Shown here: positions 10,018 through 53,291 of the stretch, piece after piece
Numbering within the stretch: position 1 is the first letter of the stretch
How the letters are laid out: the number at the start of each line of letters is the position of its first letter
Source: Elusimicrobiota bacterium
GTDB lineage: Bacteria; Elusimicrobiota; Elusimicrobia; Elusimicrobiales; UBA9959
Assembly: GCA_019135865.1 (NCBI GenBank)
Contig: JAGVVD010000012.1
Coordinates: 1-53,291 of the forward strand
Reading direction: 5' to 3'
Length of the DNA stretch: 53,291 nucleotides
The notes under the pieces: model-generated
What the model was told of the DNA's origin: nothing
What the model saw: the letters and a program-made list of their open reading frames with translations, nothing else
Database searches by the model: none
Position numbers and translations under genes: made by a program

Positions 10018-10036
10018 TTCCGGGTGGCCGACCGCA

Positions 10037-10333: not shown

Positions 10334-10352
10334 GGTCCCTCCTTGTATCGGA

Positions 10353-11098: not shown

Positions 11099-11146
11099 TT
11101 TATTTATCCTTACCTTTATTAAATCAAAAACAAACTTAATGTTGAT

Positions 11147-11175
11147 ATGATAGCACTTGATATTGATTTTGTCAA
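11147..11175 (-). promoter_or_regulatory. Consensus promoter of the DUF2089 operon, with repeated boxes
   Basis: On the minus strand TTGACA (11170-11175) and TATCAT (11147-11152) are 17 bases apart. Direct repeats ATATCAAG and ATATCAAC, 15 bases apart start to start, flank and overlap the -10 box and could be an operator. The region 11100-11210 is strikingly AT-rich. Confidence 0.85.
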
Positions 11176-11216
11176 GCCCTAAATTAAAAATATTGATAAA
11201 ACCACGGGGGGGGAAT

Positions 11217-11246
11217 AAAAAACCCGGCGCTGGGCCGGGTTTTTTG
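11217..11246 (-). terminator. Terminator of the SPFH gene
   Basis: AACCCGGC and GCCGGGTT (11221-11228 with 11234-11241) form a stem flanked by A and T tracts on both sides, so it can work in both directions. It lies 16 bases after the stop of the SPFH gene. Confidence 0.9.
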
Positions 11247-11262
11247 TGAAAACGCCTGATTA

Positions 11263-12138
11263 TTATCTTGTCTTGGCTCCCACGGAGATGAACGGAACGG
11301 CCTCTCCTCCCGTATACTGGGGGAGGACGCCGTTCCATTTCTCGATGGCTTTAAGCTGGGCTTCCACCTTGCGCAGTTCGATCATCTGGCTGGTGACCTG
11401 CTCGCGCTGCAGGCGGAGGGATTCGGCCTCGCCCTTGGCCTTGGCTATCTGCGATTCCGCTTCCTTCTTGGATTTCTCGACGAGCTTTTCGGCCATTTTG
11501 GCCTGCTGCTCGGCCACCTGCTTGTCCTCGACGGCCTTGAGGAACTGGTCGGTGAAGTCCAGGTCCACGACGGAAATGTCGGTGACGATGATCTCCTTGG
11601 TCTTCAGGCGCTCCTTGCATTCCCGGTTTATCTCGGCTACCAGGTCCTCGCGCTCGCCGATGATCTTTTCGGCGGAGAACTTGGCCGCGATGGACTTGAA
11701 GATCTCCTGCACCGTGGGGTCGACGATGGAGTTGACGTAGTTCGGGCCGAGGTTGCGGAAGATGCTGACCACGGTGTCCTTCTGTATGCGGTGATTGACC
11801 ACCAGGTGGGTGTTCATCGTCTGCAGGTCCTTGGAGAAGGCCTGGGACTTGATGTCCGCGCGCTGTATCTGTATGGAGAAGCGGGTTATGTCCTCCAGGA
11901 AGGGGGCCTTGAAGTGTATGCCCTCGTCGTAGGAATCGACTATCTTGCCCAGGCGGGTCTTTACCGCCACCTCGCCCGGCCGTACTATGAAATAGGCCGA
12001 GAGGAAGAACATGACGGCGAAAAGCCCTATCATGCCGGCCAGTATCTTACCGCTGAGATCCTTTTCCATTCCGCCTCCCTGGCGCTGTTTGAGCGCCTTG
12101 AGCTGCTCCTGCAGCTCCTCGAAGAAGTCCTTTTCCAT
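11263..12138 (-). CDS. SPFH/prohibitin-type membrane protein (HflC-like)
   Basis: This 291-residue protein has an N-terminal charged helix, a membrane helix (about 33-50) and the SPFH domain beginning YFIVRPGEVAVKTRLGK. A long Ala/Glu/Lys coiled coil (about 205-270) leads to a short C-terminal tail. Proteins of this type form ring-shaped membrane microdomain scaffolds and modulate FtsH-like proteases. There is no HflK partner nearby, so it is a single prohibitin-like protein. Two starts are possible. ATG 12138 lies six bases after a TATAAT box with a -35 TTGCCA (leaderless). ATG 12069 has GGGAGG upstream and would remove 23 residues. Both begin MEKD. Confidence 0.85.
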   Translation of the reverse strand: MEKDFFEELQEQLKALKQRQGGGMEKDLSGKILAGMIGLFAVMFFLSAYFIVRPGEVAVKTRLGKIVDSYDEGIHFKAPFLEDITRFSIQIQRADIKSQAFSKDLQTMNTHLVVNHRIQKDTVVSIFRNLGPNYVNSIVDPTVQEIFKSIAAKFSAEKIIGEREDLVAEINRECKERLKTKEIIVTDISVVDLDFTDQFLKAVEDKQVAEQQAKMAEKLVEKSKKEAESQIAKAKGEAESLRLQREQVTSQMIELRKVEAQLKAIEKWNGVLPQYTGGEAVPFISVGAKTR

Positions 12139-12144
12139 GGACGA

Positions 12145-12173
12145 ATTATAACTTTAAAGCGCCGGCCTGGCAA
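12145..12173 (-). promoter_or_regulatory. Promoter placing the SPFH mRNA start at its ATG
   Basis: TTGCCA (12168-12173), 17 bases, TATAAT (12145-12150), then six bases and ATG 12138. The expected transcription start falls on the start codon. Confidence 0.7.
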
Positions 12174-12201
12174 ATCCGGGCCGCGTGACGACGGGGGCGC
12201 G

Positions 12202-12495
12202 TTAATCCCAGCCCATCGAGTCGAGGTCCCCGGGGTCCTCCGCCGGCGGCGGAGGCGAGGATGGGGGAGGTGTGAGCGGCGGCTTTTTCGCCGGGTGCCG
12301 CGCCGCGGGGGTGGTGACGCTCCCGGCCGAGGCGGACGGGACGGCCGGCGCGGAGATGTCCCGCCTGGCGATAACCCAGGCCCTTCCCGCCCGGAAGGCG
12401 GGGATGTGCCCGCTTTTGACCCGTTTGAAAACGGCTATGCGGGAGACGCCGAGTATCGCGGCCGCCTCTGGTATCGAAAGGAAGTCTCCTGGCAT
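12202..12495 (-). CDS. Small excisionase/MerR-type HTH DNA-binding protein
   Basis: The 97-residue protein starts with a winged HTH of the excisionase/HTH_17 class (FLSIPEAAAILGVSRIAVFKRVKSGHIPAFRAGRAWVI, about 5-42). A Pro/Ala-rich disordered tail ends in an acidic segment (EDPGDLDSMGWD). No integrase or phage gene is nearby, so it is more likely a local transcription regulator. Three GTTAAC-like sites lie between its promoter and start, and the same three-site pattern lies before the divergent epimerase gene, so it probably controls both (inference). Its promoter has TTGACT (12539-12544) and TACCAT (12514-12519) with a long 19-base spacer, as in MerR-regulated promoters. Confidence 0.75.
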   Translation of the reverse strand: MPGDFLSIPEAAAILGVSRIAVFKRVKSGHIPAFRAGRAWVIARRDISAPAVPSASAGSVTTPAARHPAKKPPLTPPPSSPPPPAEDPGDLDSMGWD

Positions 12496-12496
12496 C

Positions 12497-12521
12497 GTTA
12501 ACCTATGTTAACTATGGTAAC
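12497..12521. promoter_or_regulatory. Triple-site operator 1 (at the HTH gene promoter)
   Basis: GTTAAC (12497), GTTAAC (12507) and GGTAAC (12516) are spaced by four and three bases, about one helical turn apart. The last site overlaps the -10 box of the HTH gene, which fits autorepression. Confidence 0.65.
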
Positions 12522-12579
12522 ATAAAACAACCAGGTGAAGTCAAGACCTGTATCCGCTGAACATGCTGGGCGAAAGTGC

Positions 12580-12605
12580 GGTTAACTATAGTTAACCATG
12601 ATAAC
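12580..12605. promoter_or_regulatory. Triple-site operator 2 (before the epimerase promoter)
   Basis: GTTAAC (12581), GTTAAC (12591) and GATAAC (12600) repeat the same spacing of four and three bases as operator 1. 12580-12597 is a perfect 18-bp palindrome. It sits directly before the -35 box of the epimerase operon, a position suited to activation or to blocking polymerase. Confidence 0.65.
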
Positions 12606-12608
12606 GGT

Positions 12609-12638
12609 TTGACCGGCGGGGCGGCCGCTTAATATAAT
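12609..12638 (+). promoter_or_regulatory. Promoter of the epimerase-kdsC-ccdA operon
   Basis: TTGACC (12609-12614) and a perfect TATAAT (12633-12638) are 18 bases apart. The start codon at 12661 lies about 16 bases after the expected transcription start. Confidence 0.8.
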
Positions 12639-12660
12639 AAGGGATGGGCGCTTTGGATAT

Positions 12661-13662
12661 ATGAAGATACTCGTATTGGGCGGCACAAGCTTTTTCGGTC
12701 TCGAAACGGCCAACCTGCTCCGCAAGGAGGGGCATGAGGTCACCGTTTTCTCCCGCCGCTGCCCCGTACCCGGCCTGCATCTCGATATCCGCCAGTCGCG
12801 GGGGGACCGCACGGTGGAGGCCGACCTGGTGCGCATGTCGGTGGACCGCTGGGACGCCGTCATAGACAATATCTGCTACGACGCCGCCGACGCCGAGAAG
12901 GCCGTCAGGGTCTTCAGCGGCCGGGTCGGCCTTTACGTCTTCACCAGCTCGTCCGCCGTATACTCCACGCTGGACTCGGCCCCCACTCCTTACCGCGAGA
13001 ACATGACGGCCCTGCTGCCGCCGAAGACCGCGCCGCGCCGGACCCCCTATTACGATTACGCCTCGGGCAAGGCGGAAGCCGAGAAGGTCTTCCTGAACGC
13101 GGCGGAAAGGATCTCGTTCCCCGTCCTGATGGTGCGGCCGCCCGTGGTCATCGGCCCGCGCGACCATACGCTGCGCGCCTATTCCTACTGGCTGCGGCTG
13201 GCCGACGGCGGCCCGCTGTTCCTGCCCGGCGCCGCGTTCCGGGCCAGTTACGCTTTTTCTTCCGACCTGGCGGCGGCTTTCTCCGCTCTTCTCGGCTGCG
13301 GAGCCGGGCCGGGGACCGCTTTCAATATCGCCGGTGGCGAGACGCTGTCGCTGGAGGATCTCGTAAAGCTTTCGGCCCGCATCATGCACCGCGACGCGGC
13401 GATCCTGACCCCGCCGAAGGACTGGCTGAAAGAGAACGGCTGGACGCCCGCCGCCTCGCCGCTGTCGGGCGGGGGGGGTTTCACGCTCGATGTTTCGAAG
13501 GCGCTCAAGGAGCTCGACTGGCGTCCTTCCCCCGCGGAGCGGATGCTCAAAGAATCGATAGACTGGTTCCTTTTCAGATATACCGGCCCGGCGCCGGAGA
13601 ACTACGCCGGCCGCAAGGCCGAACTGGCCCTGGCCGAGAAATGGAAGATGGAGGTCAAGTGA
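12661..13662 (+). CDS. NAD-dependent epimerase/dehydratase (extended SDR)
   Basis: This 333-residue extended short-chain dehydrogenase/reductase has the N-terminal Rossmann motif GGTSFFG (7-13) and the catalytic YASGK (about 137-141) with a preceding SSSAVYS serine region. RPPVVIGPRDH is the usual family motif. It probably acts on a nucleotide sugar, but the substrate cannot be told. It is the first gene of an operon with kdsC and ccdA, under a strong promoter with an upstream operator. Its stop overlaps the GTG start of kdsC by four bases. Confidence 0.85.
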   Translation: MKILVLGGTSFFGLETANLLRKEGHEVTVFSRRCPVPGLHLDIRQSRGDRTVEADLVRMSVDRWDAVIDNICYDAADAEKAVRVFSGRVGLYVFTSSSAVYSTLDSAPTPYRENMTALLPPKTAPRRTPYYDYASGKAEAEKVFLNAAERISFPVLMVRPPVVIGPRDHTLRAYSYWLRLADGGPLFLPGAAFRASYAFSSDLAAAFSALLGCGAGPGTAFNIAGGETLSLEDLVKLSARIMHRDAAILTPPKDWLKENGWTPAASPLSGGGGFTLDVSKALKELDWRPSPAERMLKESIDWFLFRYTGPAPENYAGRKAELALAEKWKMEVK

Positions 13663-14315
13663 AGAAGCGAGACCTGGCCGCGCGCGCGCGCGGGATAAAG
13701 ATAGTCCTGATGGACGTGGACGGCGTGCTGACCGACGGCAAAATGTACTACATCCCCGGCCGCGGCGGCGGGATGGTCGAGTTCAAGGCCTTCCACGCGC
13801 TCGACGGCATAGGTCTTCGCCTGCTCAATAATTTCGGCATAAGGACCGGCGTCATAACGGGGAGGGAATCCCCCGGCACGGAGGAGCGCGCCGCGCAGCT
13901 CGGCATGACCTACTCTTATCTCGGCTTTCTCTCCAAGCTGACCCCGATGGAGGAGATCCTTTCCGCCGAAGGGCTGAAGCCTTCGCAGCTGGCCTATATC
14001 GGCGACGACTGGACGGATATTCCGCTGCTGCGCCGGGCCGGGCTCGCCTGCGCTCCGGCCAACGCCCTGCCCGAGGTCAAGGCGGCCTCCCATTTCACGG
14101 CCCGCAAGGAGGGGGGGCTCGGGGCGGTGCGCGAAGTCTGCGACCTGATACTCTCCGCGCAGGGCAGGATGAAGGAGATCATGAAATGCGTCGAGACGGC
14201 GCATTGGCCTTCGCCGGCTAAGCCGCCGATGAAGATCGTCCGTTATTCGGAGAGGAAAAGAGCGGCCGCCGGCGGAACGGGCAAGTCCCGGGCGGGAAAA
14301 GGCAAGGGCCGGTGA
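13659..14315 (+). CDS. kdsC: KdsC-type HAD phosphatase (KDO-8-P phosphatase)
   Basis: KdsC removes phosphate from KDO-8-P in lipopolysaccharide core synthesis. The HAD motifs are DVDGVLTDG (D19 nucleophile, D21), TGRES and GDDWTDIPLL (about 112). The 218 residues are longer than usual KdsC (about 170-190): the extra part is a basic C-terminal tail (SERKRAAAGGTGKSRAGKGKGR) that looks disordered. GTG 13659 is chosen because GGAGGT lies before it and it overlaps the upstream stop (GTGA). KdsC-like proteins also include sugar phosphatases with other substrates, so the assignment is by family only. Confidence 0.85.
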   Translation: MKKRDLAARARGIKIVLMDVDGVLTDGKMYYIPGRGGGMVEFKAFHALDGIGLRLLNNFGIRTGVITGRESPGTEERAAQLGMTYSYLGFLSKLTPMEEILSAEGLKPSQLAYIGDDWTDIPLLRRAGLACAPANALPEVKAASHFTARKEGGLGAVREVCDLILSAQGRMKEIMKCVETAHWPSPAKPPMKIVRYSERKRAAAGGTGKSRAGKGKGR

Positions 14316-14992
14316 CCCAGTTCCTGGCGGCCTTCGGCGCCGGCGCCGCGTCTTTCCTTTCCCCGTGCATACTGCCGCTGCTGCCCGGCTACCTTTCGCT
14401 GATAAGCGGCTATTCCGCCTCGGAACTGCTGAAAGATCCCGAAGGCCGCCTGTCCCGGGGCGTCCTCAAAGGCGCGCTGCTTTTCTGCGCCGGTTTCGTC
14501 ATAGCCTTCACTCTGCTGGGGGCGGCCGCTTCGGCCGTCGGCGCGCTGCTCGACGCCTGGCGCGGGCCGCTCATGAAGGCCCTCGGCGCGTTGATGGTCG
14601 TCATGGGCCTGCAGATGACGGGTCTGTTCGAACTGAAGCTCTTTAATTACGAGAAGCGGGTGCCGCTTAAAAAATTCAGCGGCACTCGTTCCGGGGCTTT
14701 CCTGATGGGCTTCGCCTTCGCGCTGGGCTGGTCGCCCTGCATCGGCCCGATACTGGCGGGCATACTGGTGCTGGCCGCGGGACAGGAAGTGGGCAGGGGG
14801 ATGGCGCTGCTTTTCGTCTATTCGCTCGGACTGGCGGCGCCTTTCCTGGCGGCCGCCTGGCTGACCGTGCCGGTCTTCGGCTTTCTGGCGAAGTTCCGCG
14901 GGGGAGCGCGCAAGGTCGAGATCGCGGCGGGCGCGGTGCTCGTCGTCTTCGGCGTCCTGCTGATGGTGGACCGGCTGATGTTCGTCGGCTAG
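14312..14992 (+). CDS. ccdA: CcdA-type thiol-disulfide transporter
   Basis: This is a six-helix membrane protein (226 residues) that moves reducing power across the inner membrane, usually for cytochrome c maturation or periplasmic thioredoxin-like proteins. The paired reactive Cys are in FLSPCILPLLPGY (Cys19) and GWSPCIGPIL (about residue 145), exactly as in CcdA/DsbD-gamma. The GTG start overlaps the kdsC stop. Its stop overlaps the convergent pyrE stop within CTAG. No cytochrome c or thioredoxin gene is adjacent in this window. Confidence 0.92.
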   Translation: MTQFLAAFGAGAASFLSPCILPLLPGYLSLISGYSASELLKDPEGRLSRGVLKGALLFCAGFVIAFTLLGAAASAVGALLDAWRGPLMKALGALMVVMGLQMTGLFELKLFNYEKRVPLKKFSGTRSGAFLMGFAFALGWSPCIGPILAGILVLAAGQEVGRGMALLFVYSLGLAAPFLAAAWLTVPVFGFLAKFRGGARKVEIAAGAVLVVFGVLLMVDRLMFVG

Positions 14993-15558
14993 CGCGCCGT
15001 TCTCGACCCGGGCTTTACCAGGGGCGCGCCGCCGGCGCAGAGCGGGCAGACCGCGGGCTCGTACACCGTGAGCGCCAGTCTGAGCAGGCTCGCCGACGGG
15101 AAAGGGAAGGCGGGCTTGGCCGTGCGGTCTATCATCGACAGCGCCCCCAGCACTTTTATCCCCAGGCCCCGCGCCAGTTCCTCGGTCTCCATCGTGGACT
15201 TGCCGGTGGTGAACACGTCCTCCACTATCACGACGCGCGAGCCGGCCGGCAGCGAGAAGCCGCGGCGCAGCGTCAGCCGCCCTTCCTGTCTTTCCGCGAA
15301 AAGGAAATCCACGCCCAGCGCCGCCGCCGTTTCGTGGCCTATGATGAGGCCGCCCATCGCGGGCGAGAGGACCGCGTCGGGCTTTTCGCCCTTCCAGAGC
15401 GAGGCCAGGTCCTTCCCCAGCTCCCGCGCCAGCGCGGTGTCCTTGAGCGCCAGGGCGCATTGCACGTAGTCCGGGCTGTGCAGGCCGGACGAGAGGAGGA
15501 AATGTCCGCCGAGCAGCGCGCCTTTCTCTTTCAGCGTCTCCAGCAGGTCCTTCTTCAT
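14989..15558 (-). CDS. pyrE: Orotate phosphoribosyltransferase
   Basis: PyrE converts orotate and PRPP to orotidine 5'-phosphate. The 189 residues carry the PRPP loop VVIVEDVFTTGKSTMET (about 111-127). The C-terminal tail has a CPLC pair (VCPLCAGGAPL), which resembles a small metal-binding knuckle seen in some bacterial PyrE proteins. The start is ATG 15558 with GGAGGAG upstream, overlapping the pyrF stop by four bases. It is the last gene of the pyr operon. Confidence 0.95.
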   Translation of the reverse strand: MKKDLLETLKEKGALLGGHFLLSSGLHSPDYVQCALALKDTALARELGKDLASLWKGEKPDAVLSPAMGGLIIGHETAAALGVDFLFAERQEGRLTLRRGFSLPAGSRVVIVEDVFTTGKSTMETEELARGLGIKVLGALSMIDRTAKPAFPFPSASLLRLALTVYEPAVCPLCAGGAPLVKPGSRTAR

Positions 15559-16247
15559 GAGATCTCCTCCAGTATGGCCGCGGCCTCGGCGGCCGGGTCG
15601 GGCGCGCCGAGCACCGGGCGGCCGACGACGATGTAATCCGCCCCGGCGGCCGCGGCCTCGCGCGGCGTTGTCGTGCGCTTCTGGTCGTCGGCACGGCCTC
15701 CGGCGCCCGGGGCCGCGCGGCGTATGCCGGGCGTTATTATCTCCGCGCCGGGGCCGAGCGCCGCGCGCAGGCGGGCGGCTTCGTTGGGCGAACAGACCAC
15801 GCCGTCGAGCCCGCATTCGCGCGCCAGCGCCGCCAGGGAGTCGACGGTCTCCGCGGCGCCCGCGCGGAAACCGACGCGCGCGAAGGACGCCTCGTCGAAG
15901 CTGGTCAGCACGGTGATGCCCCACAGTTTCGGCCTGCCGGGCACGGCGGCCGCGGCGCGCAGCATGCCGGGCCCGCCGGAGGCGTGGACCGACAGGGAGA
16001 AGACGCCCAGCCGGGCGGCCTGCTCGACGGCTCTTTTGACCGTGTTGGGGATATCGTGCAGCTTGAGGTCGAGGAAAACGCCGCGCCCGTATTTCCCGGC
16101 CAGCTCCACGCAGGCGGGCCCGGCGCCGGTGAAAAGGGCCGGCCCCAGTTTGTAATGGACGGGCAGTCCCTTTAGCGTTTCCAGGATCTCCCTCTCCGCC
16201 TCCATCGTCGGCACGTCGAGGGCGATTATCAGTTCCGTATCAGGCAT
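15555..16247 (-). CDS. pyrF: Orotidine 5'-phosphate decarboxylase
   Basis: PyrF makes UMP from OMP. The 230-residue protein has the catalytic DLKLHDIPNT (about 60-69) with the Lys-Asp pair, the LSVHASGG strand and the phosphate-binding GRPVLGAPDP near the end. AAGGAGG lies before the ATG, which sits inside the last eight bases of pyrD. Confidence 0.95.
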   Translation of the reverse strand: MPDTELIIALDVPTMEAEREILETLKGLPVHYKLGPALFTGAGPACVELAGKYGRGVFLDLKLHDIPNTVKRAVEQAARLGVFSLSVHASGGPGMLRAAAAVPGRPKLWGITVLTSFDEASFARVGFRAGAAETVDSLAALARECGLDGVVCSPNEAARLRAALGPGAEIITPGIRRAAPGAGGRADDQKRTTTPREAAAAGADYIVVGRPVLGAPDPAAEAAAILEEIS

Positions 16248-17274
16248 CGGCTGCCTCCTTGCCTGCGAGATGCTCCAGTATGCTCTTCACGAAGAATGGC
16301 CCGCCGTAGACGAGGCCGGTATAGACCTGCACCAGCGCCGCGCCGGCGCGCAGCCGCCAGGCCGCTTCCTCCGGCTCCATTATCCCGCCCGAGGCGATGA
16401 CCGGCGCGCCGGCGGCGCCTTCGAGCGCGGCCTTGAGCGAGGTGCGCGCCATTTCACGGAGGGGGGAGCCGCTCAGGCCGCCGGCCTCGTGCTCCCAGCG
16501 GCGCTCCAGTCCCTCGCGCGAGACCGTCGTGTTGGAGACGATGATCCCGGCGCCGCGGCCGGCGATCAGCCGCGCGCAGGCTTCCGTTTCGGCCGGCGAC
16601 AGGTCCGGGGCCAGTTTTATGAACACCGGCTTCTTTTCCGGCCGCGAGGCGGCGAAGCCGAGCAGGGCGTCGAGCAGCGGCTCCAGGTATTCCGGCCGGT
16701 GCAGCTCGCGCAGCTGCTTCGTGTTGGGAGAGCTGATGTTGACGGCGAAGTAATCGCCGTAAGGATAAAGGACCTTCAGCGCCTCCAGGTAATTGTCCCG
16801 GGCCTGGTCCAGCGGGCAGTCGGCGTTCTTGCCGATGTTGACGCCCAGCGGCGCGCGGCGCCTGCCCAGACGCCGCAGGTTCTCCGCGGCGGCCAGGGCC
16901 CCGCGGTTGTTGAACCCCATACGGTTCAGCAGGGCGCCTTTCTCCGGCAGGCGGAACAGGCGGGGCTTTGGATTGCCCGGCTGCGGCCGCAGCGTCACGG
17001 TCCCCAGTTCCAGGAAGCCGAAGCCGAGCGATTCGAGGAAAGGGTAGCACTCGCAGTCCTTGTCGAAGCCGGCCGCCAGACCGACGGGGTTGGGGAAATC
17101 GAGGCCCGCCACCCTCGCCGGCCTCTGCGGCGCCGCGCACAGCGCGCGCATGACCAGCGCCGGCAGCCGGAAGGCCCAGGAGGTTTTGGAAGCCAGCACC
17201 GCGGCGTCATGCGCGGTCTCGGGGTCCAGGGCGAAAAGGGCCGGCTTGGCCAGTTTCTCGTATAAGGACCACAT
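16240..17274 (-). CDS. pyrD: Dihydroorotate dehydrogenase, quinone type (class 2)
   Basis: PyrD oxidises dihydroorotate to orotate with FMN. The 344-residue length and the N-terminal helix (MWSLYEKLAKPALFALDPETAH) mark the membrane-bound, quinone-using class 2. The catalytic Ser is in VNISSPNTKQLR (about 176-187). FMN-binding motifs GLAAGFDKD and NTTVSR and ASGGI are visible. The start shares one base with the pyrC stop (TGATG). The class 2 type implies a respiratory quinone pool. Confidence 0.95.
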   Translation of the reverse strand: MWSLYEKLAKPALFALDPETAHDAAVLASKTSWAFRLPALVMRALCAAPQRPARVAGLDFPNPVGLAAGFDKDCECYPFLESLGFGFLELGTVTLRPQPGNPKPRLFRLPEKGALLNRMGFNNRGALAAAENLRRLGRRRAPLGVNIGKNADCPLDQARDNYLEALKVLYPYGDYFAVNISSPNTKQLRELHRPEYLEPLLDALLGFAASRPEKKPVFIKLAPDLSPAETEACARLIAGRGAGIIVSNTTVSREGLERRWEHEAGGLSGSPLREMARTSLKAALEGAAGAPVIASGGIMEPEEAAWRLRAGAALVQVYTGLVYGGPFFVKSILEHLAGKEAADA

Positions 17275-18557
17275 CAGCGGCGCCTCCTGTGGACGACGCG
17301 CCCCTCCGAGACGGTAAGGACTACGGCGCCGCGCAGGCGGCGGCCTTTGAAAGGGGAGTTCTCCGACCTGGAGAAAAAGGGCGGTTTTACTTCGTATTCC
17401 GCCGTCGGGTCGATGAGCGCGAGGTCGGCGTCCATGCCGGGCAGCAGGGAGCCCTTGGTCCGCAGGCCCAGCAGCCCGGCCGGATTGGAGGAGAGGAGTT
17501 GCGTCAGGCGCGCGCGGCTTATATGCCCGGGGAAGACCAGGTGGGTCAGGCAGGCGGCGGCCAGGGTCTCCAGCCCGATGACGCCGAAAGGGGCGCGCAG
17601 GAGGCCTTTCGCTTTTTCGGCCGCCGGGTGAGGCGCGTGATCGGTGGCGACCATATCTATTGTCCCGTCGGCCAGGCCGCCGATAAGGGCGCGCCTGTCG
17701 GCTTCCGCGCGCAGCGGCGGTTTCATCTTCAGGTCGGCCCCGCCCGCGGGGACGTCGTTCTCGGTCAGCGCGATATAATGCGGGCAGGTCTCGGCGGTGA
17801 CCGGCAGGCCGGCGGCTTTGGCGCGGCGCAGCAGTCCGACGGAGGCCGCGCAGCTCAGGTGCTGGATGTGGAGGCGCCCGCCGGCCCGCCGCAGCGAGGC
17901 CAGGTCCGACCGCAGGGCCAGCGTCTCGGCGCGTCGGTCTATTCCCGGCAGCCCGAGCCGCCGGGAGACCGGGCCGAGGTTGACTACGCCGGGGCCGGTG
18001 ACGGAGAAGTCCTCCGAATGCTGGAGAACGGGGGCGCCCAGGTCCCAGGCCCTGCGCAGGGCCTCCTCGAAGAGGTCCCTGTCGGAGAGCCAGCCGCCGT
18101 CGTCGGTGAAAGCGGCGGCGCCGGCCGCGGACAGCTTCTCCAGGCCGGTGAGGGCCCGGCCCGCGCGCCCTCTGGTCAGGGCGGCCGCGAAGAACAGGTT
18201 CACGGCGCATTTCCTCCGCGCCCGCGCGCGGAGGTCCTTCAGCAGGGAGGGGGAATCGCAGGGCGGGGAGGTGTTGGGCATGGCCAGCGCCGAGGTGACG
18301 CCGCCGGCCGCGGCGGCGCGCCCCAGGCTGCGGAGATCCTCGGCCTTCCCGTCGCCGGGCTCCCTCGCGTGGACATGCGCGTCCACGAAGCCGGGGAAAA
18401 GCCAGAGGCCGCGCGCGTCGACGACGGCGCAGCCCCGCGGGGGAGTTATCCCCGCGGCTATCCTGGTTATTCTGCCGTTCTCGGCGAGAAGGTCGCGGAC
18501 CTTCTCCGGGCCCAGCGCGGGATCAGCCGCGAGGGCCCTTCTTATCAGCAGCTTCAT
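17274..18557 (-). CDS. pyrC: Dihydroorotase (type I, AllB/PyrC class)
   Basis: PyrC cyclises carbamoyl aspartate to dihydroorotate. Metal ligands are visible: FVDAHVHAREPG (HxH), LQHSED, ETCPHYIALT and TDHAPH. The length from ATG 18557 is 427 residues, usual for class I enzymes that pair with aspartate transcarbamoylase; no pyrB lies in this window. ATG 18557 is preferred over the upstream ATG 18590, because GGGAG precedes it and the family begins with the MKLLIRRA strand. It overlaps the end of the upstream membrane-protein gene by 35 bases. Confidence 0.93.
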   Translation of the reverse strand: MKLLIRRALAADPALGPEKVRDLLAENGRITRIAAGITPPRGCAVVDARGLWLFPGFVDAHVHAREPGDGKAEDLRSLGRAAAAGGVTSALAMPNTSPPCDSPSLLKDLRARARRKCAVNLFFAAALTRGRAGRALTGLEKLSAAGAAAFTDDGGWLSDRDLFEEALRRAWDLGAPVLQHSEDFSVTGPGVVNLGPVSRRLGLPGIDRRAETLALRSDLASLRRAGGRLHIQHLSCAASVGLLRRAKAAGLPVTAETCPHYIALTENDVPAGGADLKMKPPLRAEADRRALIGGLADGTIDMVATDHAPHPAAEKAKGLLRAPFGVIGLETLAAACLTHLVFPGHISRARLTQLLSSNPAGLLGLRTKGSLLPGMDADLALIDPTAEYEVKPPFFSRSENSPFKGRRLRGAVVLTVSEGRVVHRRRR

Positions 18558-45778: not shown

Positions 45779-46146
45779 TTTTTCTCCGGTAAGCCGCCGG
45801 ACTCGCGCCGTCGGCGCCAGGAATCAATGTTACAAAAATTTAGCGTTGTCTGGTGGCGGCGCGGCTTAATTCTGCGGGCGCGCATGTTGTTGAGGCGGGG
45901 GATATCGACAAATATCCGTTCGTTTTGTGTAAAGTCCTTAAATAGCCCGGAATATTGGGTTTAAGGGGGCCGCACCGGACCGCATCTCCGTTACGCATGC
46001 TTGACAACGTGACAACAGTCTGTAAGAATATGGCGGTCGGCGCAGGACAGGGGAAAAGGGGCGGGCCGATGTTTTCAAAATTCAACTTTAACGGGAGCCG
46101 CGCGCTTCGGGCGTGCGGCTTTGTCTATTGCCATGGAGGAAAACTT
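45779..46146. other. Gene-free region upstream of the duplicated modules
   Basis: No gene is supported. It holds a hairpin (CCTTAAA to TTTAAGG near 45936-45966), then the module promoter and a leader of about 117 bases. The first half (45830-45960) is clearly more AT-rich than the surrounding genes. Confidence 0.5.
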
Positions 46147-46303
46147 ATGAACCGCATCATCGCAGGAGTTCTCATCATGCTGGCGCCTTGCGCCGCGTTA
46201 GCGCAGGAAGCGTCCACCGCCGCGGAGCAGGTGCCGATAGAGGAATACGTGCCTAAGGTCATCATCGAAGGCAAATGGGGCACGGGGCCGGGGGAATTCG
46301 GGA
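46000..46303 (+). repeat. Leader block, copy 1 of a direct repeat
   Basis: This block carries the promoter, leader hairpin, ribosome site, signal peptide and first 50 or so codons of the NHL protein. It matches 48048-48350 at roughly nine in ten bases by eye. Confidence 0.9.
46001..46028 (+). promoter_or_regulatory. Module 1 promoter
   Basis: TTGACA (46001-46006), 16 bases, TAAGAA (46023-46028). The leader that follows holds a 10-bp hairpin (AGCCGCGCGC, loop TTCGG, GCGTGCGGCT) and then TTTG. Confidence 0.65.
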
Positions 46304-46983
46304 TGGCATCGCAGTTCCCGCTGGGGTATTTTGAGAAATATCAGCCCTCCAGTCTTGCGGTGGATTCCAAAGGAAATATCTATATCCTGGACTTTGTCAA
46401 CGACCGGATACAGAAATTCGACAAGTCCGGCAAGTATCTGACGGAACTGCCGGTGGAAGGGATGAAGGGCGAGTTGGCCGGATATTGTGACGCGGATACC
46501 TGCTATGAAGAACCGCCGGCTCCCGGTCAAAAAATAGAGCGCAAAGTGATGGGGCAAATCGAAGTCCAGGGCATCAATATCGTGATAGACAGCAAGGACA
46601 CGCTGTACTATTACCTCAAACGCAACAAGGATGGCAAGGAAACGGGCGAGGTGTGGCAGTTCAGGAACGACAAGTTGATAAAAAAAACAGAGGTCCCGGC
46701 TCACGGTGGAGTTTATTATGAGGCTCCATTAGGCTTGATACTTGAGCCGGATGATTCGATATGGATTTTCAATATAAAGGAAAACAACAAGAAGACCCAT
46801 GATTTTTATGAGATAAGAAGCGCCAAAAAATATGATTTATCCCGTCGTGAAGAAAAGCGGAAAACATCGCGCGAGAGTCTTGGCGCCGATAAAGCCAAGA
46901 AAGTATTCCAGCGAAGGCGCGCGCTTAATATGGCGGTGACATCGGATGGGATAAAAGTCACACGGACAAGGAAAGGGGAATAG
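46147..46983 (+). CDS. Secreted NHL-repeat protein, module copy 1
   Basis: The 278-residue protein begins with a signal peptide (RIIAGVLIMLAPCAALAQ). An NHL-type beta-propeller repeat follows: WGTGPGEFG and then PSSLAVDSKGNIYILDFVNDRIQKFDKSGKYL (about 72-103), with later strands GINIVIDSKDTLYYYL and EPDDSIWIFNI. The propeller is short and the C-terminus is basic. Such proteins usually bind peptides or sugars. GGAGG precedes ATG 46147. It lies one base before the NlpC-like gene, and a paralogue (48195) has the same first 50 residues and a diverged remainder. Confidence 0.82.
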   Translation: MNRIIAGVLIMLAPCAALAQEASTAAEQVPIEEYVPKVIIEGKWGTGPGEFGMASQFPLGYFEKYQPSSLAVDSKGNIYILDFVNDRIQKFDKSGKYLTELPVEGMKGELAGYCDADTCYEEPPAPGQKIERKVMGQIEVQGINIVIDSKDTLYYYLKRNKDGKETGEVWQFRNDKLIKKTEVPAHGGVYYEAPLGLILEPDDSIWIFNIKENNKKTHDFYEIRSAKKYDLSRREEKRKTSRESLGADKAKKVFQRRRALNMAVTSDGIKVTRTRKGE

Positions 46984-46984
46984 T

Positions 46985-48052
46985 ATGCGTTGGGGGATTA
47001 TTCTAGGTGTTGTTGCATTATTTGAGACGCCGTGTTTCGCCTTAACTCGGAACGATGTTCTCAATCGAGCTGGCGAATACGTGAGCATAGCTTGGGAAAT
47101 AGGCCCTGACAACATTCTTGATGTATACAATCATATGGGGAGTACTTCGGCAACTCCCAACAAGGGGAGTGATGGTTGGGATGACCGTGGGTATGATTGG
47201 GATGTGGAAAATTCGACATGGGTTTATTCAATTGATCGCTGGCCCTTTGTCGTCGGTTCTAGTGTTGACGGCGAGGCGTATGCGTACGGGAGTGACCACA
47301 GTACGGCGACATTCGTCTCTTATCTGGCTACGCGGATAGCCGGTTCCAGGCAGATAGATGTGGATTTGAACATGGATAAAAAAGTGGACTCTCCACTTTT
47401 TTCCAGGATAACGGGCACCGACTGTTCGGGTTTTGTGCAGCAGGCATATGGCCTTCCAAGAAGGCCTGTCTCGGATCCTCCGGGCACGGAAAAATACAAT
47501 GTCACGGCGCTTAAAAGCATTTCTCGACCGGTCTCTTTGGGGGAATTAAAACCCGGGGATATTTTCGCGAGCGTCGGGCATGTCCTGATATTCGAAAAGT
47601 GGGAAGAAAAACACCAGACCGCCCATGTCCGACATGCCGTTCCTTACACTTATTCGGGGAATATCCATAAGCGGAGGGTTATTGACGAGATCGTCGCGGT
47701 CAGCAGTGATACGGCCGGCGGGATCAGGATTTTTAATGCGAATGAAGGAAATACTGTCCCTCACAAAGCCAGAAGCTCATTCCCGCAGTTCGCGTGGACT
47801 ACGCCCGCCTACGTCCATCCACACCCCCTGATGACCCCAGTGAACCAGCTCATAGAGCTGGAGGTGGGCTCCAAGAGCAGCGTGGTGCCTTCCAGCGTCA
47901 TGCTGGTGTTCGACGACCATCTGGTAAATGCTACCACGGTGTACGCGGGCATGGAGGGGTTCTCGGTGACGCCGTCGAGCCCGGCGCTGCGCGTCACGGT
48001 CAGGTACGCGGTGCCGTCGGACCGCCTGCTGGCGTTGGGTGCCCAGGCTTGA
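46985..48052 (+). CDS. NlpC/P60-like secreted protein, truncated module copy 1
   Basis: The 355-residue protein has a signal peptide (GIILGVVALFETPCFA). A Cys-peptidase domain of the NlpC/P60 type follows, with catalytic Cys147 in GTDCSGFVQQAYG and His199 in VGHVLIFEKW. Such domains cut peptidoglycan peptides. Residues 266-350 copy the constant block of the downstream giant protein, after which the protein stops within the promoter of module 2: the TGA stop is part of that promoter's TTGACA. It is therefore a truncated copy, not the natural end of the family. Codon use is more AT-rich than in the neighbours. Confidence 0.82.
   Translation: MRWGIILGVVALFETPCFALTRNDVLNRAGEYVSIAWEIGPDNILDVYNHMGSTSATPNKGSDGWDDRGYDWDVENSTWVYSIDRWPFVVGSSVDGEAYAYGSDHSTATFVSYLATRIAGSRQIDVDLNMDKKVDSPLFSRITGTDCSGFVQQAYGLPRRPVSDPPGTEKYNVTALKSISRPVSLGELKPGDIFASVGHVLIFEKWEEKHQTAHVRHAVPYTYSGNIHKRRVIDEIVAVSSDTAGGIRIFNANEGNTVPHKARSSFPQFAWTTPAYVHPHPLMTPVNQLIELEVGSKSSVVPSSVMLVFDDHLVNATTVYAGMEGFSVTPSSPALRVTVRYAVPSDRLLALGAQA
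47780..48031 (+). repeat. Constant block, copy 1 of a direct repeat
   Basis: This 252-bp block matches 49817-50068 with only about eight differences by eye. It encodes the segment from FPQFAWT to PSDRLL that follows the peptidase domain in both proteins. Confidence 0.95.
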
Positions 48053-48350
48053 CAACGCGATAACAGTCTGTAAGAATATGGCGGTCGGCGCAGGACAGGG
48101 GAAAAGGGGCGGGCCGATGTTTTCAGAATTCAATTGTAACGGGAGCCGTGCGCTTCGGGCGTGCGGCTTTGTTTATTGCTATGGAGGAAAACCTATGAAC
48201 CGCATCATCGCAGGAGTTCTCATCATGTTGTCGCCTTGCGCCGCCCTGGCGCAGGAGGCTTCAACCGCCGCGGACCAGGTGCCGATAGAGGAATACGTGC
48301 CGAAGGTGATAATAGAAGGCAAATGGGGCACGGGCCCAGGGGAGTTTGGA
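48048..48350 (+). repeat. Leader block, copy 2 of a direct repeat
   Basis: This is the second copy of the promoter/leader/signal-peptide block, 2048 bases after copy 1. It begins directly after the truncated constant block. Confidence 0.9.
48049..48076 (+). promoter_or_regulatory. Module 2 promoter
   Basis: TTGACA (48049-48054), 16 bases, TAAGAA (48071-48076), as in module 1. The leader hairpin is kept, with one C to T change that turns a C:G pair into T:G. Confidence 0.65.
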
Positions 48351-48989
48351 GCGCTCGACGATCCGATGCAAGCCGAATATTATGGCGTGCCGCAGTTCCC
48401 TGGTAGTCTGGCGGTGAACTCGAAAGGTGAAATTTACATTCTGGATCACGTTAATGGACGGATTCAGAAGTTCTCACAGGCTGGACAGCATCTCGCCGAT
48501 ATTCCTGTCCTGAGCTGTGCGGATGAGAACAAAAACAACATCGTTAAAGTTGAGGAAATGAAAGACGGCACGATTTCGTTCGATCTGAGAAGCTCCCCTT
48601 CGTTTCTTGGCATCAACATCGTCATAGACTCCAAAGACAACCTCTACTATTACCTCAAGCGTAGCAAGGATGGTAAAGAGACCGGCGAGGTGTGGGAATT
48701 CAGGAACGATAAGCTGGTGAAGAAGACGGTGGTGCCGGTTGGCGGCTCCATAGTTGCCGGGCAAGGTTTAGTCCGGGATGACTCTGATGATTCCATCTGG
48801 ATTTTCAATATCAAAGATAAAGGTCCCGGGTCGTTTAAAAGCCATGAAGTTAAAGAAAATAAAAACTATACGAGGCAGCAGCGTGATGAACGCTATAAAG
48901 GGGTAAAGCGGGGCGTTGTTAAATCCGGGCATAGTTTAAGAAATTATATGCAAGTTTCCAGTGATGGGGTTAAAGTTGTCCGGAAATAA
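48195..48989 (+). CDS. Secreted NHL-repeat protein, module copy 2
   Basis: The 264-residue paralogue of the protein at 46147 has the same signal peptide and first 50 residues (EEYVPKVIIEGKWGTGPGEFG). The middle is diverged with its own NHL strands (PGSLAVNSKGEIYILDHVNGRIQKF) and a conserved later segment (YYYLKRSKDGKETGEVWEFRNDKLVKK). The C-terminus is again basic. GGAGG precedes the ATG. It lies 17 bases before the giant gene and is probably its partner. Confidence 0.82.
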   Translation: MNRIIAGVLIMLSPCAALAQEASTAADQVPIEEYVPKVIIEGKWGTGPGEFGALDDPMQAEYYGVPQFPGSLAVNSKGEIYILDHVNGRIQKFSQAGQHLADIPVLSCADENKNNIVKVEEMKDGTISFDLRSSPSFLGINIVIDSKDNLYYYLKRSKDGKETGEVWEFRNDKLVKKTVVPVGGSIVAGQGLVRDDSDDSIWIFNIKDKGPGSFKSHEVKENKNYTRQQRDERYKGVKRGVVKSGHSLRNYMQVSSDGVKVVRK

Positions 48990-49006
48990 TAAATACGGGG
49001 GCGGCA

Positions 49007-52000
49007 ATGAGAAGGGATAGAGTTTCGAGGCGAGTCTTTTCGGCCTTACTTTTCGGAATTATGTTATCGGCGGATTTCGTCTGGGCTAGAACCAGGGATG
49101 AGGTTTTGGATAGTGCAAAGGTCTATGCGGACCTATTGTGGAAGCCGACAGCATACAATCTGTTGGATGTGAAAAATCATAGGGACAATCTCACAGAAGG
49201 TGATGTGACCAAGATTGATGGTTCGGACGGAATAGACGATAGGGCTTTCAAGTGGAACAGCCAAGATGAGCTTCCGCACTGGGAATACTCGACGAAATAC
49301 TGGCCCTTCGTCGTAGGCTCAACTGTTCATGGCGAGGCGTATGCGTTGGGCATAGATGATACGACAGCTACTTTCAAGAGTAAGTTAGAAGAGATGGATG
49401 GGGGGAAGAGTTGGATCGCAGGGCGCGAGGACGAAAAAGTCCTGCCCGGCGGGTATCTTGGGGTCACCGGCATCGATTGCAGCAGGTTCGCTTCGCGGCT
49501 AATAGAGCTTTATCCTACGACTTGGACAGGAATGTTGAAAAGTATTTCCACACCAATTTCTTATCGTGACATGAAGAAGGGGGACTGGCTTTTTCGGACG
49601 GATCTCGGACATGTCCTGATTTTTGCTGACGAGAAATTCGAAAACCAGCCCAATATTAATTTGGTCCATTCGGTTACATGGGCCTACGGGTGGTCCGAAC
49701 ATGTCAGCAGGGTAATTAAGGATAATGCTGATGTCGATTTTGACGAAACCGGAATAAAACTTCGGGTTAAATCGCGCGTCACGAATCAGTATCAGCCGCA
49801 TGAAGTGTATTCCCCGTTCCCGCAGTTCGCGTGGACTTCGCCTGCCTACGTCCATCCACACCCCCTGATGACCCCAGTGAACCAGCTCATAGAGCTGGAG
49901 GTGGGCTCCAAGAGCAGCGTGGTCCCTTCAAGCGTCATGCTGGTGTTCGACGACCATCTGGTAAATGCTACCACGGTGTACGCGGGCATGGAGGGGTTCT
50001 CGGTGACGCCGTCGAGCGCGGACGGGCGCGTCACGGTCAGGTACGCGGTGCCGTCGGACCGCCTGCTGTCGATCGGTATGCATGCGGTCACGGCGTACGC
50101 GTCCAACCTGCTCGAACTGCGCGATTCCTCGCGGCTGGAATTCCAGGTGACCGACACCTACGATAAGCCCCTGATAGCCTGGGAGGACGCGGGTCCGCTG
50201 CCTTTCATGACCGGCGGATTGCGCGGTTCCAACACGCCCGCGACCGCCCACTGGCTGCACACGGAGCGGGTCGTCTTCCGTTCCTCGGCTTCGGCCGCGC
50301 CGCTGACGGACTTCGTCATCTACGAGGACGACACCATGGGCACCGAGCTCTACCGCCGGGACTTCGTACCCGGCACGCTTTCCGCGGACATAAGCGAGGC
50401 GCTGACCGGGTTCCCGGACAAGACGGAGTATTACGCGCTGCTGCGCGACGAGCTGGGCCATACGACCACCATGTATTTCCATCTCGACAAAGAGGGGCCG
50501 GTCATAGAACCAGTCGGCGTCGCGCGGCTCAACGGCAACGGCGATGGCCTGCTTTGCGACGCTACGGGGCAGGCGATCGACGCCATGTCGGGCCTGGGGA
50601 CCGAGGTCATGAATGTGCCGATCGGTATTCCTCTTGAATACGACGGGCCGACTTATCCGCCGGGCGCCGGGACCACGGGCTTTTCGTTCCCGGAAATACC
50701 TTCCTACATGTCGCTGGCGGTCTTCGACCGCGCCGGCTGGTCCGGGGTCTACAATTTCAAGACCATCTCCTCTCACACGATTTTGGAAGCTTCCAACTCT
50801 TCCTCTTCGGGTATAGGAGGAAGTGTCGGTACTATCCTTAATAGCGCCGAGTTCAATACCGCCGGTCTGGTGCCACAGCTCGGCAAGTGGCAATATTTTG
50901 CAAATCGTCCCACAGGGATGCGGGTGGAACTTTGGGCCGAGACCAACGACCAGGTTTTATTGGATCCCGGTATCCCAATACAGTATACCTACTTGCGCAC
51001 CGGGACGACCAGGTTTTTCGAAGCGACCGGCACCTACTCGCAGACGCAGAGCGCTACATTCAATCTCCCGATGAAACAGGAATTGAAACTTGTGGTGCAC
51101 ACCTACGGCAATACCAATACGGGCACTATCATGAGCGGCAGGGACACCGACGGCGATGATACCCCGGACACCTGGGATCCAGTGCCATACGGCCCCGACT
51201 CTTTTTACTTGGAGGCAAATGGCCGGGCTTCCGCGTCCGCCTTGGACCTGGGCACTGTCCCCCATTTTTACCAGTGGCTGCCGGTCGGCGACATACAGCG
51301 TTTGGAGGCGGGAGCGGTGTATCTTACCATCCGCGGCGTGACGCAGCCGGGCGTCATTACCGTAGACACCGCGCGGCGCACCTTGTCGCAGCCGGGCTAC
51401 AAGATGGCCGGCGATGAGATGGTCTACGAGATCAAGACCGACGCGGTCTTCACTGGCCCCATAACGCTGAACATAGGCTTCAACCGCCCGTCGTATACCC
51501 TCGACCAGAGCTCGTGGCCGGTGATAATGCACTGCCCCGCCGGGGCGGACGACTGCGAACGGCTGGATACCACTTCCGACGGGTTCACGGCCGAGGCCAC
51601 GCTGACCAGCCTCTCGCCGTTCGGCGTGATGGTGCCGTTGGACGATGTGACCGCGCCGCGCACGGAGTTCGCGCTTGTGGGCGAACAGGAATATTCCGAA
51701 AACCAGTTATGGGTCACGCCCGAGACCTATGTCGACCTGACGGCCGACGACCGGGCCAATATCGGCGACGTGAGCGGCGTGGCGGGCATTTATGCTCTGC
51801 TGGACCACGAGCCCACCCCGGAATGCCTGGCCGCGACTTATGACCCCGCCGCCCCGGCCGGGACCTGCGCCAATCCGCGTTACGGCGGTATCTTCCCGGT
51901 GCCCGAGGGCGCGCATACGGTCTATTACGCCAGTTACGACCACTGGGGCAACCGCGAGGAATTCAGGTCCCGCGAGCTGCTCTCCGACGGCACCGCGCCG

Positions 52001-53291
52001 CGCACGGAGCTTCTCTGGAACCTCGGGGACGAGGTGGTATATTGCGGCGATACGCCGTGCCTGGGCCCGTCCGACACGCTGGTCCTGGACGCTTCGGACC
52101 AGGTCTCCGGCGGGGTTTCCTCCGGAGTGGAGTTCAGCGCCCTGCTCATCGACGTCACCCCGGAGAACTGCGGCGGATTCGAAGAACTCGATCCGCAGGC
52201 CCCGCTGGGCACCTGCCTCAATCCGGTCTATACCGGGCCGTTCAGCATGCCCCCCGGACCTCACACGCTGTACTATTTCAGCGTGGACAAGGCCGGCAAC
52301 TTCGAGCTCGCTAACTCCACTCCGGTGTTCGTGGACGACATACCGCCGGTAGTGACGCTCTACGCGGACGGCGTGGAAGTGCCCGACGGGGGCGAGTCAT
52401 TCCTGGTGGCGGGGGCTTCCATAACGCTGGCGGCTTTCGACCCTGTTGACGACGGCTTCTCCACCGGTATCTATGAAACGGAGTATCTTATAGACGTCGC
52501 GTTCGACAGTTGCCCGCCGGAAGAGGAAGACGGCGACGGCGAGGGGGAAGGCGACGGCGAAGAAGGTGAGGGCGAGGATGAAGAAGATGACGGCCCGCGC
52601 GGCACCTGCGGCAATTCGGGCTATGAAGGCCCGTTCACGCTGACGCCCGGCACGCATACCGTCTATTACCTGGCGCATGATATGGTGATGAACGCCTCGG
52701 CGGTGAGGACGGCTCATTTCACGGTGGGGTCCTCATCGGGCCCGGCGGAGGCTTCCATCACGCCCTCTTCCGGCCCTATAGGCCTGCCATTCACTATAAC
52801 GGGCGAAGGGTTCGGCGCTTATTCGGCCGGTACCACGGTGGCGCTGATAGGCGGGACCACCACGCCGCTGACGCTGTGGACCGACACGCAGATAAAGGGC
52901 ACGGTGCCTGGTTCGCTGGCGGCGGGGGAATACCCGGTCCTGGTGATGCGCGGGGCCGGCCTGTTGGCCGAAACCTCTTCGTTCACCGTCGTCGTACCGG
53001 CATTGGCCGCTATCGCGCCTTCGTCGGGGCCTATCGGCCTGCCTTTCGCGCTGAACGGGACCGGTTTTGGCAATTACGTCGCCAATTACACGCGGGTCCT
53101 TATCGGCGGGACGACCTGCCCGCTGACCTTGTGGACTGATACTCAGATCAAAGGGACCATTCCCGGAACTATCGCACCAGGGATGCATGAAGTGCTGGTC
53201 GAGCGTGAGCTTAACGGCGGATTGGTCCAATCCGCGCCGGTGTCCTTTGACCTGCGAAATATGGAGGCTGACTGGATAGCGCCTTCTTCCG
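49007..53291 (+). CDS. Giant secreted NlpC/P60-like surface protein, runs off the window
   Basis: The frame is open from ATG 49007 to the window end (at least 1428 residues, no stop). A signal peptide (VFSALLFGIMLSADFVWA) is followed by an NlpC/P60-like domain with Cys158 in GIDCSRFASRL and His202 in LGHVLIFADEK. The constant block is at 271-354. A long beta-rich part (355-900) comes next. Three Ig-like repeats with Y-x-S-x-D-x-x-GN endings (for example HTVYYASYDHWGN and HTLYYFSVDKAGN) span about 906-1241. At least two IPT/TIG-like repeats (SSGPIGLPFTITGEGFG, then WTDTQIKGTVPG) begin near 1246, and a third begins at the window end. The third Ig-like repeat carries a Gly/Asp/Glu-rich loop (1172-1196). 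The layout is that of a long extracellular stalk displaying an N-terminal enzyme. Confidence 0.9.
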   Translation, partial: MRRDRVSRRVFSALLFGIMLSADFVWARTRDEVLDSAKVYADLLWKPTAYNLLDVKNHRDNLTEGDVTKIDGSDGIDDRAFKWNSQDELPHWEYSTKYWPFVVGSTVHGEAYALGIDDTTATFKSKLEEMDGGKSWIAGREDEKVLPGGYLGVTGIDCSRFASRLIELYPTTWTGMLKSISTPISYRDMKKGDWLFRTDLGHVLIFADEKFENQPNINLVHSVTWAYGWSEHVSRVIKDNADVDFDETGIKLRVKSRVTNQYQPHEVYSPFPQFAWTSPAYVHPHPLMTPVNQLIELEVGSKSSVVPSSVMLVFDDHLVNATTVYAGMEGFSVTPSSADGRVTVRYAVPSDRLLSIGMHAVTAYASNLLELRDSSRLEFQVTDTYDKPLIAWEDAGPLPFMTGGLRGSNTPATAHWLHTERVVFRSSASAAPLTDFVIYEDDTMGTELYRRDFVPGTLSADISEALTGFPDKTEYYALLRDELGHTTTMYFHLDKEGPVIEPVGVARLNGNGDGLLCDATGQAIDAMSGLGTEVMNVPIGIPLEYDGPTYPPGAGTTGFSFPEIPSYMSLAVFDRAGWSGVYNFKTISSHTILEASNSSSSGIGGSVGTILNSAEFNTAGLVPQLGKWQYFANRPTGMRVELWAETNDQVLLDPGIPIQYTYLRTGTTRFFEATGTYSQTQSATFNLPMKQELKLVVHTYGNTNTGTIMSGRDTDGDDTPDTWDPVPYGPDSFYLEANGRASASALDLGTVPHFYQWLPVGDIQRLEAGAVYLTIRGVTQPGVITVDTARRTLSQPGYKMAGDEMVYEIKTDAVFTGPITLNIGFNRPSYTLDQSSWPVIMHCPAGADDCERLDTTSDGFTAEATLTSLSPFGVMVPLDDVTAPRTEFALVGEQEYSENQLWVTPETYVDLTADDRANIGDVSGVAGIYALLDHEPTPECLAATYDPAAPAGTCANPRYGGIFPVPEGAHTVYYASYDHWGNREEFRSRELLSDGTAPRTELLWNLGDEVVYCGDTPCLGPSDTLVLDASDQVSGGVSSGVEFSALLIDVTPENCGGFEELDPQAPLGTCLNPVYTGPFSMPPGPHTLYYFSVDKAGNFELANSTPVFVDDIPPVVTLYADGVEVPDGGESFLVAGASITLAAFDPVDDGFSTGIYETEYLIDVAFDSCPPEEEDGDGEGEGDGEEGEGEDEEDDGPRGTCGNSGYEGPFTLTPGTHTVYYLAHDMVMNASAVRTAHFTVGSSSGPAEASITPSSGPIGLPFTITGEGFGAYSAGTTVALIGGTTTPLTLWTDTQIKGTVPGSLAAGEYPVLVMRGAGLLAETSSFTVVVPALAAIAPSSGPIGLPFALNGTGFGNYVANYTRVLIGGTTCPLTLWTDTQIKGTIPGTIAPGMHEVLVERELNGGLVQSAPVSFDLRNMEADWIAPSS
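49817..50068 (+). repeat. Constant block, copy 2 of a direct repeat
   Basis: This is the second copy of the 252-bp block, 2037 bases after copy 1. Here the reading frame continues into the stalk of the giant protein instead of stopping. Confidence 0.95.

Follow-up and report, generated by a model that had tools for sequence, protein, structure and literature searches.

The window analysed here is a whole contig (G000:C12, 53,291 bp) from the genome bin (2.95-Mb, 59 contigs) of an uncultured member of the Elusimicrobia. At its right end lie two tandem modules, each composed of a promoter-like site, a gene for a secreted NHL-repeat protein and a gene for a secreted NlpC/P60-like protein (Table 1). 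The ends of the two modules are nearly identical and their cores are strongly diverged. We regard the region as probably a polymorphic locus for a surface effector, which varies at the N-terminus by acquiring cassettes, each consisting of an NHL body and the front of an NlpC/P60-like head, and that keeps the replaced cassettes upstream.

Organization of the two modules

The two leader blocks are 91% identical over 306 bp at an offset of 2048 (blastn), and both begin with a TTGACA-17-AAGAAT promoter-like site, located by promoter scan at 46001 (46001-46029) and 48049. The constant blocks, at an offset of 2037, share 95.4% over 261 bp. The longest exact runs common to both copies measure 87 bp in the constant block and 64 bp in the leader. 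Both offsets are those given in a first-pass annotation of this DNA, whose description of two promoter-NHL-NlpC/P60 copies with near-identical ends and diverged cores agrees with these values and with the silent-site mosaic reported below. Between the ends, weaker islands of similarity occur in the middle of the NHL gene (46570-46706 and 48609-48745, 79%) and further downstream (47239-47314 and 49300-49375, 74%). The two NHL proteins match at 57%, with the likeness concentrated in the leader and the mid block.

Copy 1 is stalkless, as first annotated, and the TGA stop of its head falls within the TTGACA (-35 box) of the copy 2 promoter. Copy 2 does bear the stalk, but its gene is unfinished: the open reading frame of at least 1428 aa has no stop and leaves the contig inside the TIG repeats. 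Both constant blocks are in frame, so that a crossover between them would yield an in-frame fusion of head 1 with the stalk.

Table 1 Features of the tandem modules (positions in the window)
Feature	Coordinates	Strand	Remarks
Upstream intergenic element	45899..45992	+	directly 5' of leader 1; blastn 83% to C46 (L036 16530-16598), 85% to C6 (L047 6992-7063)
Leader block 1	45996..46301	+	promoter-like site, 5' region, NHL signal peptide and constant N-terminus (...VPKVIIEGKWGTGPGEFG)
NHL-repeat partner, copy 1	46147..46983	+	278 aa; PF01436 NHL 25.5 bits, cut-off 20
Variable cassette 1 (NHL body and head 1)	46303..47779	+	GC 48-50%, GC3 0.51-0.58
NlpC/P60-like head, copy 1 (stalkless orphan)	46985..48052	+	355 aa; signal peptide, catalytic Cys/His intact
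Constant block 1	47780..48040	+	start of stalk region, truncated
Leader block 2	48044..48349	+	abuts constant block 1, junction 48044-48049
NHL-repeat partner, copy 2	48195..48989	+	264 aa; PF01436 26.9 bits, cut-off 20
Variable cassette 2 (NHL body and head 2)	48351..49816	+	GC 47-48%, GC3 0.54
Head-stalk surface protein, copy 2	49007..53290	+	signal peptide, NlpC/P60-like head, constant block, long Ig/TIG stalk
Constant block 2	49817..50077	+	95.4% to constant block 1

Silent-site divergence and base composition

The copies were aligned by codon and their divergence was measured at synonymous sites (pS). Values were 0.06-0.10 in the constant block and 0.34 in the coding leader; they rose to mostly about 0.7-0.9 (0.71-0.88) in the NHL body and to about 0.7-1.0 (0.69-0.98) in the heads, so that the silent sites of both are saturated. 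The G+C content at third codon positions (GC3) was 0.51-0.58 in the bodies versus 0.77-0.85 in leader, constant block and stalk. Silent divergence is thus far from even along the module, which rules out the simple old duplication that the first-pass annotation had set against cassette switching. Selection by itself, purifying on the ends and diversifying on the bodies of duplicated genes, would fit the mosaic of amino acids taken in isolation, but the silent sites show the same mosaic (0.06-0.10 versus 0.7-1.0), and this explanation is hardly credible. Both were rejected on the silent-site divergence. Since selection on amino acids cannot give a mosaic pS together with a low GC3 of the bodies, these would have been imported or exchanged, and both cassettes look imported rather than like diverged copies of one resident gene.

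Exchange across lineages and between sister species

The genome encodes a third head on contig C46. Its peptidase domain matches that of G020, a member of another genus in the same family, at 50%, versus 25-28% for the C12 peptidases of its own genome; the adjoining constant block has 44% to G020 versus 78-88% within its own genome. Across families, G331 and G335 match at 61% in the constant block, and their heads are unrelated (24-25%); G331 and G339_39 match at 69% in the peptidase core, and here the head N-termini (30%) and constant blocks (33%) are the unrelated parts. An old in-place tandem duplication, in which gene conversion homogenised the ends and the middles diverged without foreign import, would explain near-identical ends, and constant blocks are 95% similar within the locus versus 88% between loci. 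Conversion accounts neither for the low GC3 of the bodies nor for a C46 head nearer to another genus than to its own genome nor for mosaics across families, and we judge it improbable.

Orphan and active modules can be compared in the sister species G339 and G340. Contig C75 of G340 carries, in this order, a WD40 gene that shares the leader of the NHL genes, a first NHL gene with a truncated head, and a second NHL gene with a head-stalk protein of 1799 aa. The orphan head is cut right after the catalytic Cys motif (GIDCAEF). Orphan and active copies have in common a 177-bp block with 96.6% nucleotide identity, although over this stretch the identity of their proteins to those of G339 is only about two-thirds. 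In G339, a single module on contig C39 occupies what is apparently the same locus, with a common neighbouring gene and kds genes. Its NHL C-terminal half matches the G340 orphan at 72% versus 26% for the active copy, and its head N-terminus at 60% versus 47%; its catalytic core matches the active copy at 87%. A control locus, orthologous in these two genomes (G339:C33 and G340:C10), is evenly conserved across partner and head, at about 66-88%. By these alignments, the active cassette of G339 matches the upstream orphan of G340 and not the active one. An orphan in one genome that is active in another was the argument for module interchange in Yersinia loci of contact-dependent growth inhibition (CDI) (PMC3150448). 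The exchanged unit differs somewhat from the NHL/peptidase pair first assumed: the NHL C-terminal tail moves with the N-terminal part of the head, and the catalytic core may or may not be included, so that the hypervariable DNA lies across the gene boundary.

The leader of the WD40 propeller gene (L114, 253-2580) is 85.5% identical over 152 bp to the leader of the second NHL gene, which indicates that a constant leader has been fused to different propeller types.

In G335, a stalkless NHL and NlpC pair (L121, G335:C99) has an IS240-type transposase on one side and two tyrosine recombinases on the other, and this neighbourhood suggests one vehicle by which cassettes may move. Two further loci have transposase genes nearby. 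In G020 (L094, G020:C138) a head-stalk gene without its front end is found directly 3' of a Mutator-type transposase gene, and in G336 (L132 6118-7929, G336:C36) a lone NHL partner gene is followed by a transposase-like gene in place of a peptidase head.

Among the 341 genomes of the phylum that were searched, 8 had a match to the head and 14 to the NHL protein at the cut-offs used; three further members of the genus had neither. The distribution is patchy, as expected of a mobile, competitive or diversifying trait. In searches of genome contigs, the whole stalk protein gave no match; the head alignment matched three loci in Elusimicrobia and, weakly, one in Ignavibacteria (21% identity). In relatives, the stalk matches fall mostly on the TIG/Ig repeats, and these are uninformative for the cassette.

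Paralogous loci in the genome

On C46, a leader and a longer NHL protein precede the third head, which sits on a related stalk. Directly upstream stands an orphan 130-bp piece from the 3' part of a constant block, joined to the leader at a position (L036 about 16757) matching the junction of constant block 1 and leader 2 on C12. These junctions bear on the chance that the assembly of this metagenome-assembled genome joined two paralogous loci through shared repeats. Contigs of the genome do break within shared stalk repeats (window 53291; L036 20000; L037 1; L046 1), and the exact runs of 87 and 64 bp would suffice for a k-mer misjoin; against this, the sequence of the constant-to-leader junction differs between C12 and C46, and the unrelated genome G340 has a comparable junction of orphan and active module. 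Such an artefact is very unlikely. Judging from stalk positions in the alignment, and not from the assembly, the probable continuation of C12 is C22, and that of C46 is C25.

Contig C6 shows the order upstream element, HEAT-repeat genes, 200-bp stalk fragment and NHL gene at the contig end. Seen in full (L047, G000:C6:16000-27061, positions 5625-11062), the region holds an integrase-core (rve) gene, HEAT-repeat genes of which one is apparently broken, the stalk fragment and the contig-cut NHL gene. From its gene content, this array is a stack of putative displaced partner genes. Homologues of the upstream element of the window are placed just 5' of the C46 module and of this HEAT array. The CATGC preceding leader 1 was considered as a scar of a constant block and set aside, as C6 has an identical flank; it probably belongs to the upstream element.

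Displaced remnants thus stand 5' of active modules as the constant-block fragment of C46, the HEAT genes and stalk fragment of C6 and the WD40 gene of G340. The repeated occurrence of stalk remnants ahead of the next leader fits new cassettes displacing old ones upstream. Loci with more than two modules, which the first-pass annotation had proposed to look for, are found at G340:C75 and G000:C6; with the mosaic pS, the exchange of heads between lineages and the orphan/active match of the sister species, they support cassette switching. On C58 (L053, G000:C58:19578-19745) the leader/promoter region occurs by itself ahead of unrelated genes, either as a remnant or as a borrowed promoter.

On contig C48 the same stalk and C-terminus are preceded by another kind of N-terminal domain, and the partner is HEAT-like. 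The operon (L038, G000:C48:68000-87999, positions 7335-15912) encodes a HEAT-like secreted protein, a stalk protein of 2193 aa and a PorV-family protein. The N-terminal domain of the 2193-aa protein is unrelated and, judged by eye, resembles a permuted papain-like fold (HGAIYVG...DAFVEYCYAAAG). A HEAT and NlpC-like gene is encoded nearby on the minus strand (16642-18060). On C9 (L097, G000:C9:10000-22000, positions 3387-11219, minus strand), a stalk operon is preceded by an 800-aa M15-type peptidase protein and a small secreted partner; here the peptidase is encoded as a gene separate from the stalk. Near another stalk gene, on C51 (L045, G000:C51, positions 4464-7187, minus strand), a classical Rhs-like YD-repeat protein with a DPIGF-type core end was observed.

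Predicted functions of head, partner and stalk

Where present, the catalytic Cys (DCSGF-type motif) is kept in 16/16 heads and the His in 13/13; the third catalytic position is mostly His, with Glu in three heads and Ala in one. Head profile A1 matches MepS/Spr structures (E 4e-4), and a head homologue in G335 reaches 22.0 bits with PF00877 (cut-off 23). From these motifs and matches, the head may hydrolyse peptidoglycan. AlphaFold2 gave an unusable model of the head (pLDDT, predicted local distance difference test, 34). For the NHL protein the pLDDT was 68 and a PDB search returned NHL propellers with TM-scores below 0.4, so that a full propeller is a tentative assignment.

Partners are of different types (NHL, WD40, HEAT). 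Their pairing with the head is supported by gene linkage and by the joint exchange of the NHL tail with the head N-terminus. NHL proteins and heads co-diverge significantly (Mantel r 0.48-0.67), but so does the constant block. In antagonism of the contact type, the NHL protein may be the matched partner of the head, as its immunity protein or its chaperone.

The paralogous stalks of C25, C48, C22 and C9 end in a C-terminal domain resembling that of the type IX secretion system (T9SS), and a PorV-family gene comes next. PorV-family or PorV-like genes likewise follow stalk genes of this and other genomes; the G334-type locus is an example of a complete NHL-head-stalk-PorV operon. The PorV-family gene directly 3' of a stalk scored 139 bits, and 18 members of this family exceeded the cut-off in the genome. 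Together with a distant SprA-like protein on C43, this makes T9SS-like export of the stalked form likely. The orphan, which has neither stalk nor C-terminus, should remain periplasmic.

The foremost guess at function is a toxin/immunity pair, since polymorphic toxins include a recognised NlpC/P60 clade and immunity proteins with HEAT repeats are known (PMC3482391). Tentatively, and with slightly less than even probability, the locus may represent a T9SS-type polymorphic antagonism system, patchy in Elusimicrobia, in which the N-terminal NlpC/P60-type head is the toxin, the upstream propeller (NHL, WD40) or HEAT protein is the matched immunity, and specificity is switched by recombining upstream-stacked cassettes onto one stalk. 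The main rival on function is a diversified surface enzyme without antagonistic role: cassettes would switch, with the head as enzyme and the propeller as co-secreted subunit, in escape from phage, predators or glycan changes, or in adhesion or wall remodelling. NHL, WD40 and HEAT proteins are all generic binding scaffolds, and the sister species have the catalytic core in common and swap only the head N-terminus and NHL tail. On the other side, partners linked pairwise to heads, together with stored orphans, are the hallmark of toxin/immunity systems (PMC3150448), and the two protein classes named above are recognised among toxins and immunity proteins. The enzyme explanation is possible, and we do not favour it.

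Several points weigh against a switching toxin/immunity locus. The Pfam NLPC_P60 cut-off (PF00877, 23 bits) was missed by both heads of the window, copy 1 with 13.6 bits and copy 2 without a listed match. The constant block correlates in the Mantel test too (0.55-0.60), and the test is therefore no proof of matched NHL-head pairs. The sorting domain of the C48 stalk scored 21.5 bits with TIGR04183 (cut-off 23), the C-terminus of the window stalk lies beyond the contig, and the SprA-like protein reached 80 bits versus a cut-off of 200. Homogenisation within the locus rests on 8 clustered sites versus 1. The closest case of switching concerns sister species and not strains of one lineage, and the toxin/immunity role is a guess rather than a demonstrated function.

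Proposed mechanism

A resident stalk gene would encode a signal peptide, an NlpC/P60-type head, the constant block, the Ig/TIG stalk and, probably, a T9SS-like sorting domain with a PorV partner. It would acquire cassettes as continuous stretches of DNA that cover the NHL body together with the front part of the peptidase gene downstream; the hypervariable DNA contains the NHL tail and the head N-terminus, sometimes with the catalytic core. Homologous recombination would set the right boundary within the constant block and the left one, in effect, in the leader or the N-terminal region or half of the NHL gene, and recombination at both bounds would swap partner and head together. Integration beside a resident cassette would leave the old one upstream as a stalkless orphan, with its truncated constant block abutting the next leader. 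Recombination between direct repeats could rejoin the orphan with its stalk, or remove modules. The repeats appear long enough for this reversal, since the main and orphan rhs modules of Salmonella share 522 bp at 95%, with evidence for recombination between them reported by the authors (PMC3967940).

Comparison with known polymorphic loci

The locus can be regarded as an N-terminal, upstream-stacking counterpart of the Rhs and CDI polymorphic loci, to which the first-pass annotation had likened it. In the CdiA-CT/CdiI and Rhs orphan-module loci, a variable effector end and its adjacent partner are likewise exchanged as one block of DNA (Poole 2011, PMC3150448; Koskiniemi 2014, PMC3967940). 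A conserved trafficking or stalk part is combined with a variable effector domain that differs between relatives, as found here. Orphans carry a short copy of the conserved core, and the orphan of one strain is the main module of another; here, fragments of the conserved core accompany copy 1 of C12, the constant fragment of C46, the stalk fragment of C6 and head 1 of G340. Direct repeats permit fusion of orphan and main module, with 522 bp in Salmonella and 261 bp at 95.4% in our case. In contrast to the C-terminal variable domain and downstream displaced modules of CDI and Rhs loci, the variable end is N-terminal here, the partner gene lies upstream, and the orphans, stacked upstream as well, each retain a promoter and a signal peptide. 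No CdiB or two-partner secretion protein, VENN or DPxGL motif or YD repeat was seen in the module, and toxin and immunity are putative roles here. The MafB/MafI system of Neisseria, in which polymorphic toxins are secreted, immunity genes are linked to them and some cassettes are silent, also varies at the C-terminus and keeps its cassettes downstream.

The TANFOR toxins of Bacteroidetes are similarly polymorphic and linked to T9SS-type cargo neighbourhoods; their constant domain is N-terminal and their toxin C-terminal, and the passages covered describe no N-terminal cassette exchange (PMC7073777). The Tox-NLPC/P60 and Imm-HEAT families of Zhang et al. (2012, PMC3482391) correspond to the NlpC/P60 variable domain and to the HEAT partners of C48 and C6. 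In the covered parts of this standard survey, peptidase versions of toxins are invariably C-terminal and Tox-NLPC/P60 is listed without an assigned immunity family; the term NHL is absent from its searched text.

Known polymorphic toxin loci thus vary at the C-terminus and hold spare modules downstream, and the present locus is their mirror image. A system with an obligatory C-terminal sorting signal would have to vary at its N-terminus. The locus shows such variation in practice, with mirror-image modules, upstream orphans that each have a promoter, and interspecies exchange. From it, a rule can be derived for finding N-terminal polymorphic effectors in phyla that have a T9SS, and it is a directly testable candidate for a role of the T9SS in competition between bacteria, which this locus may serve.
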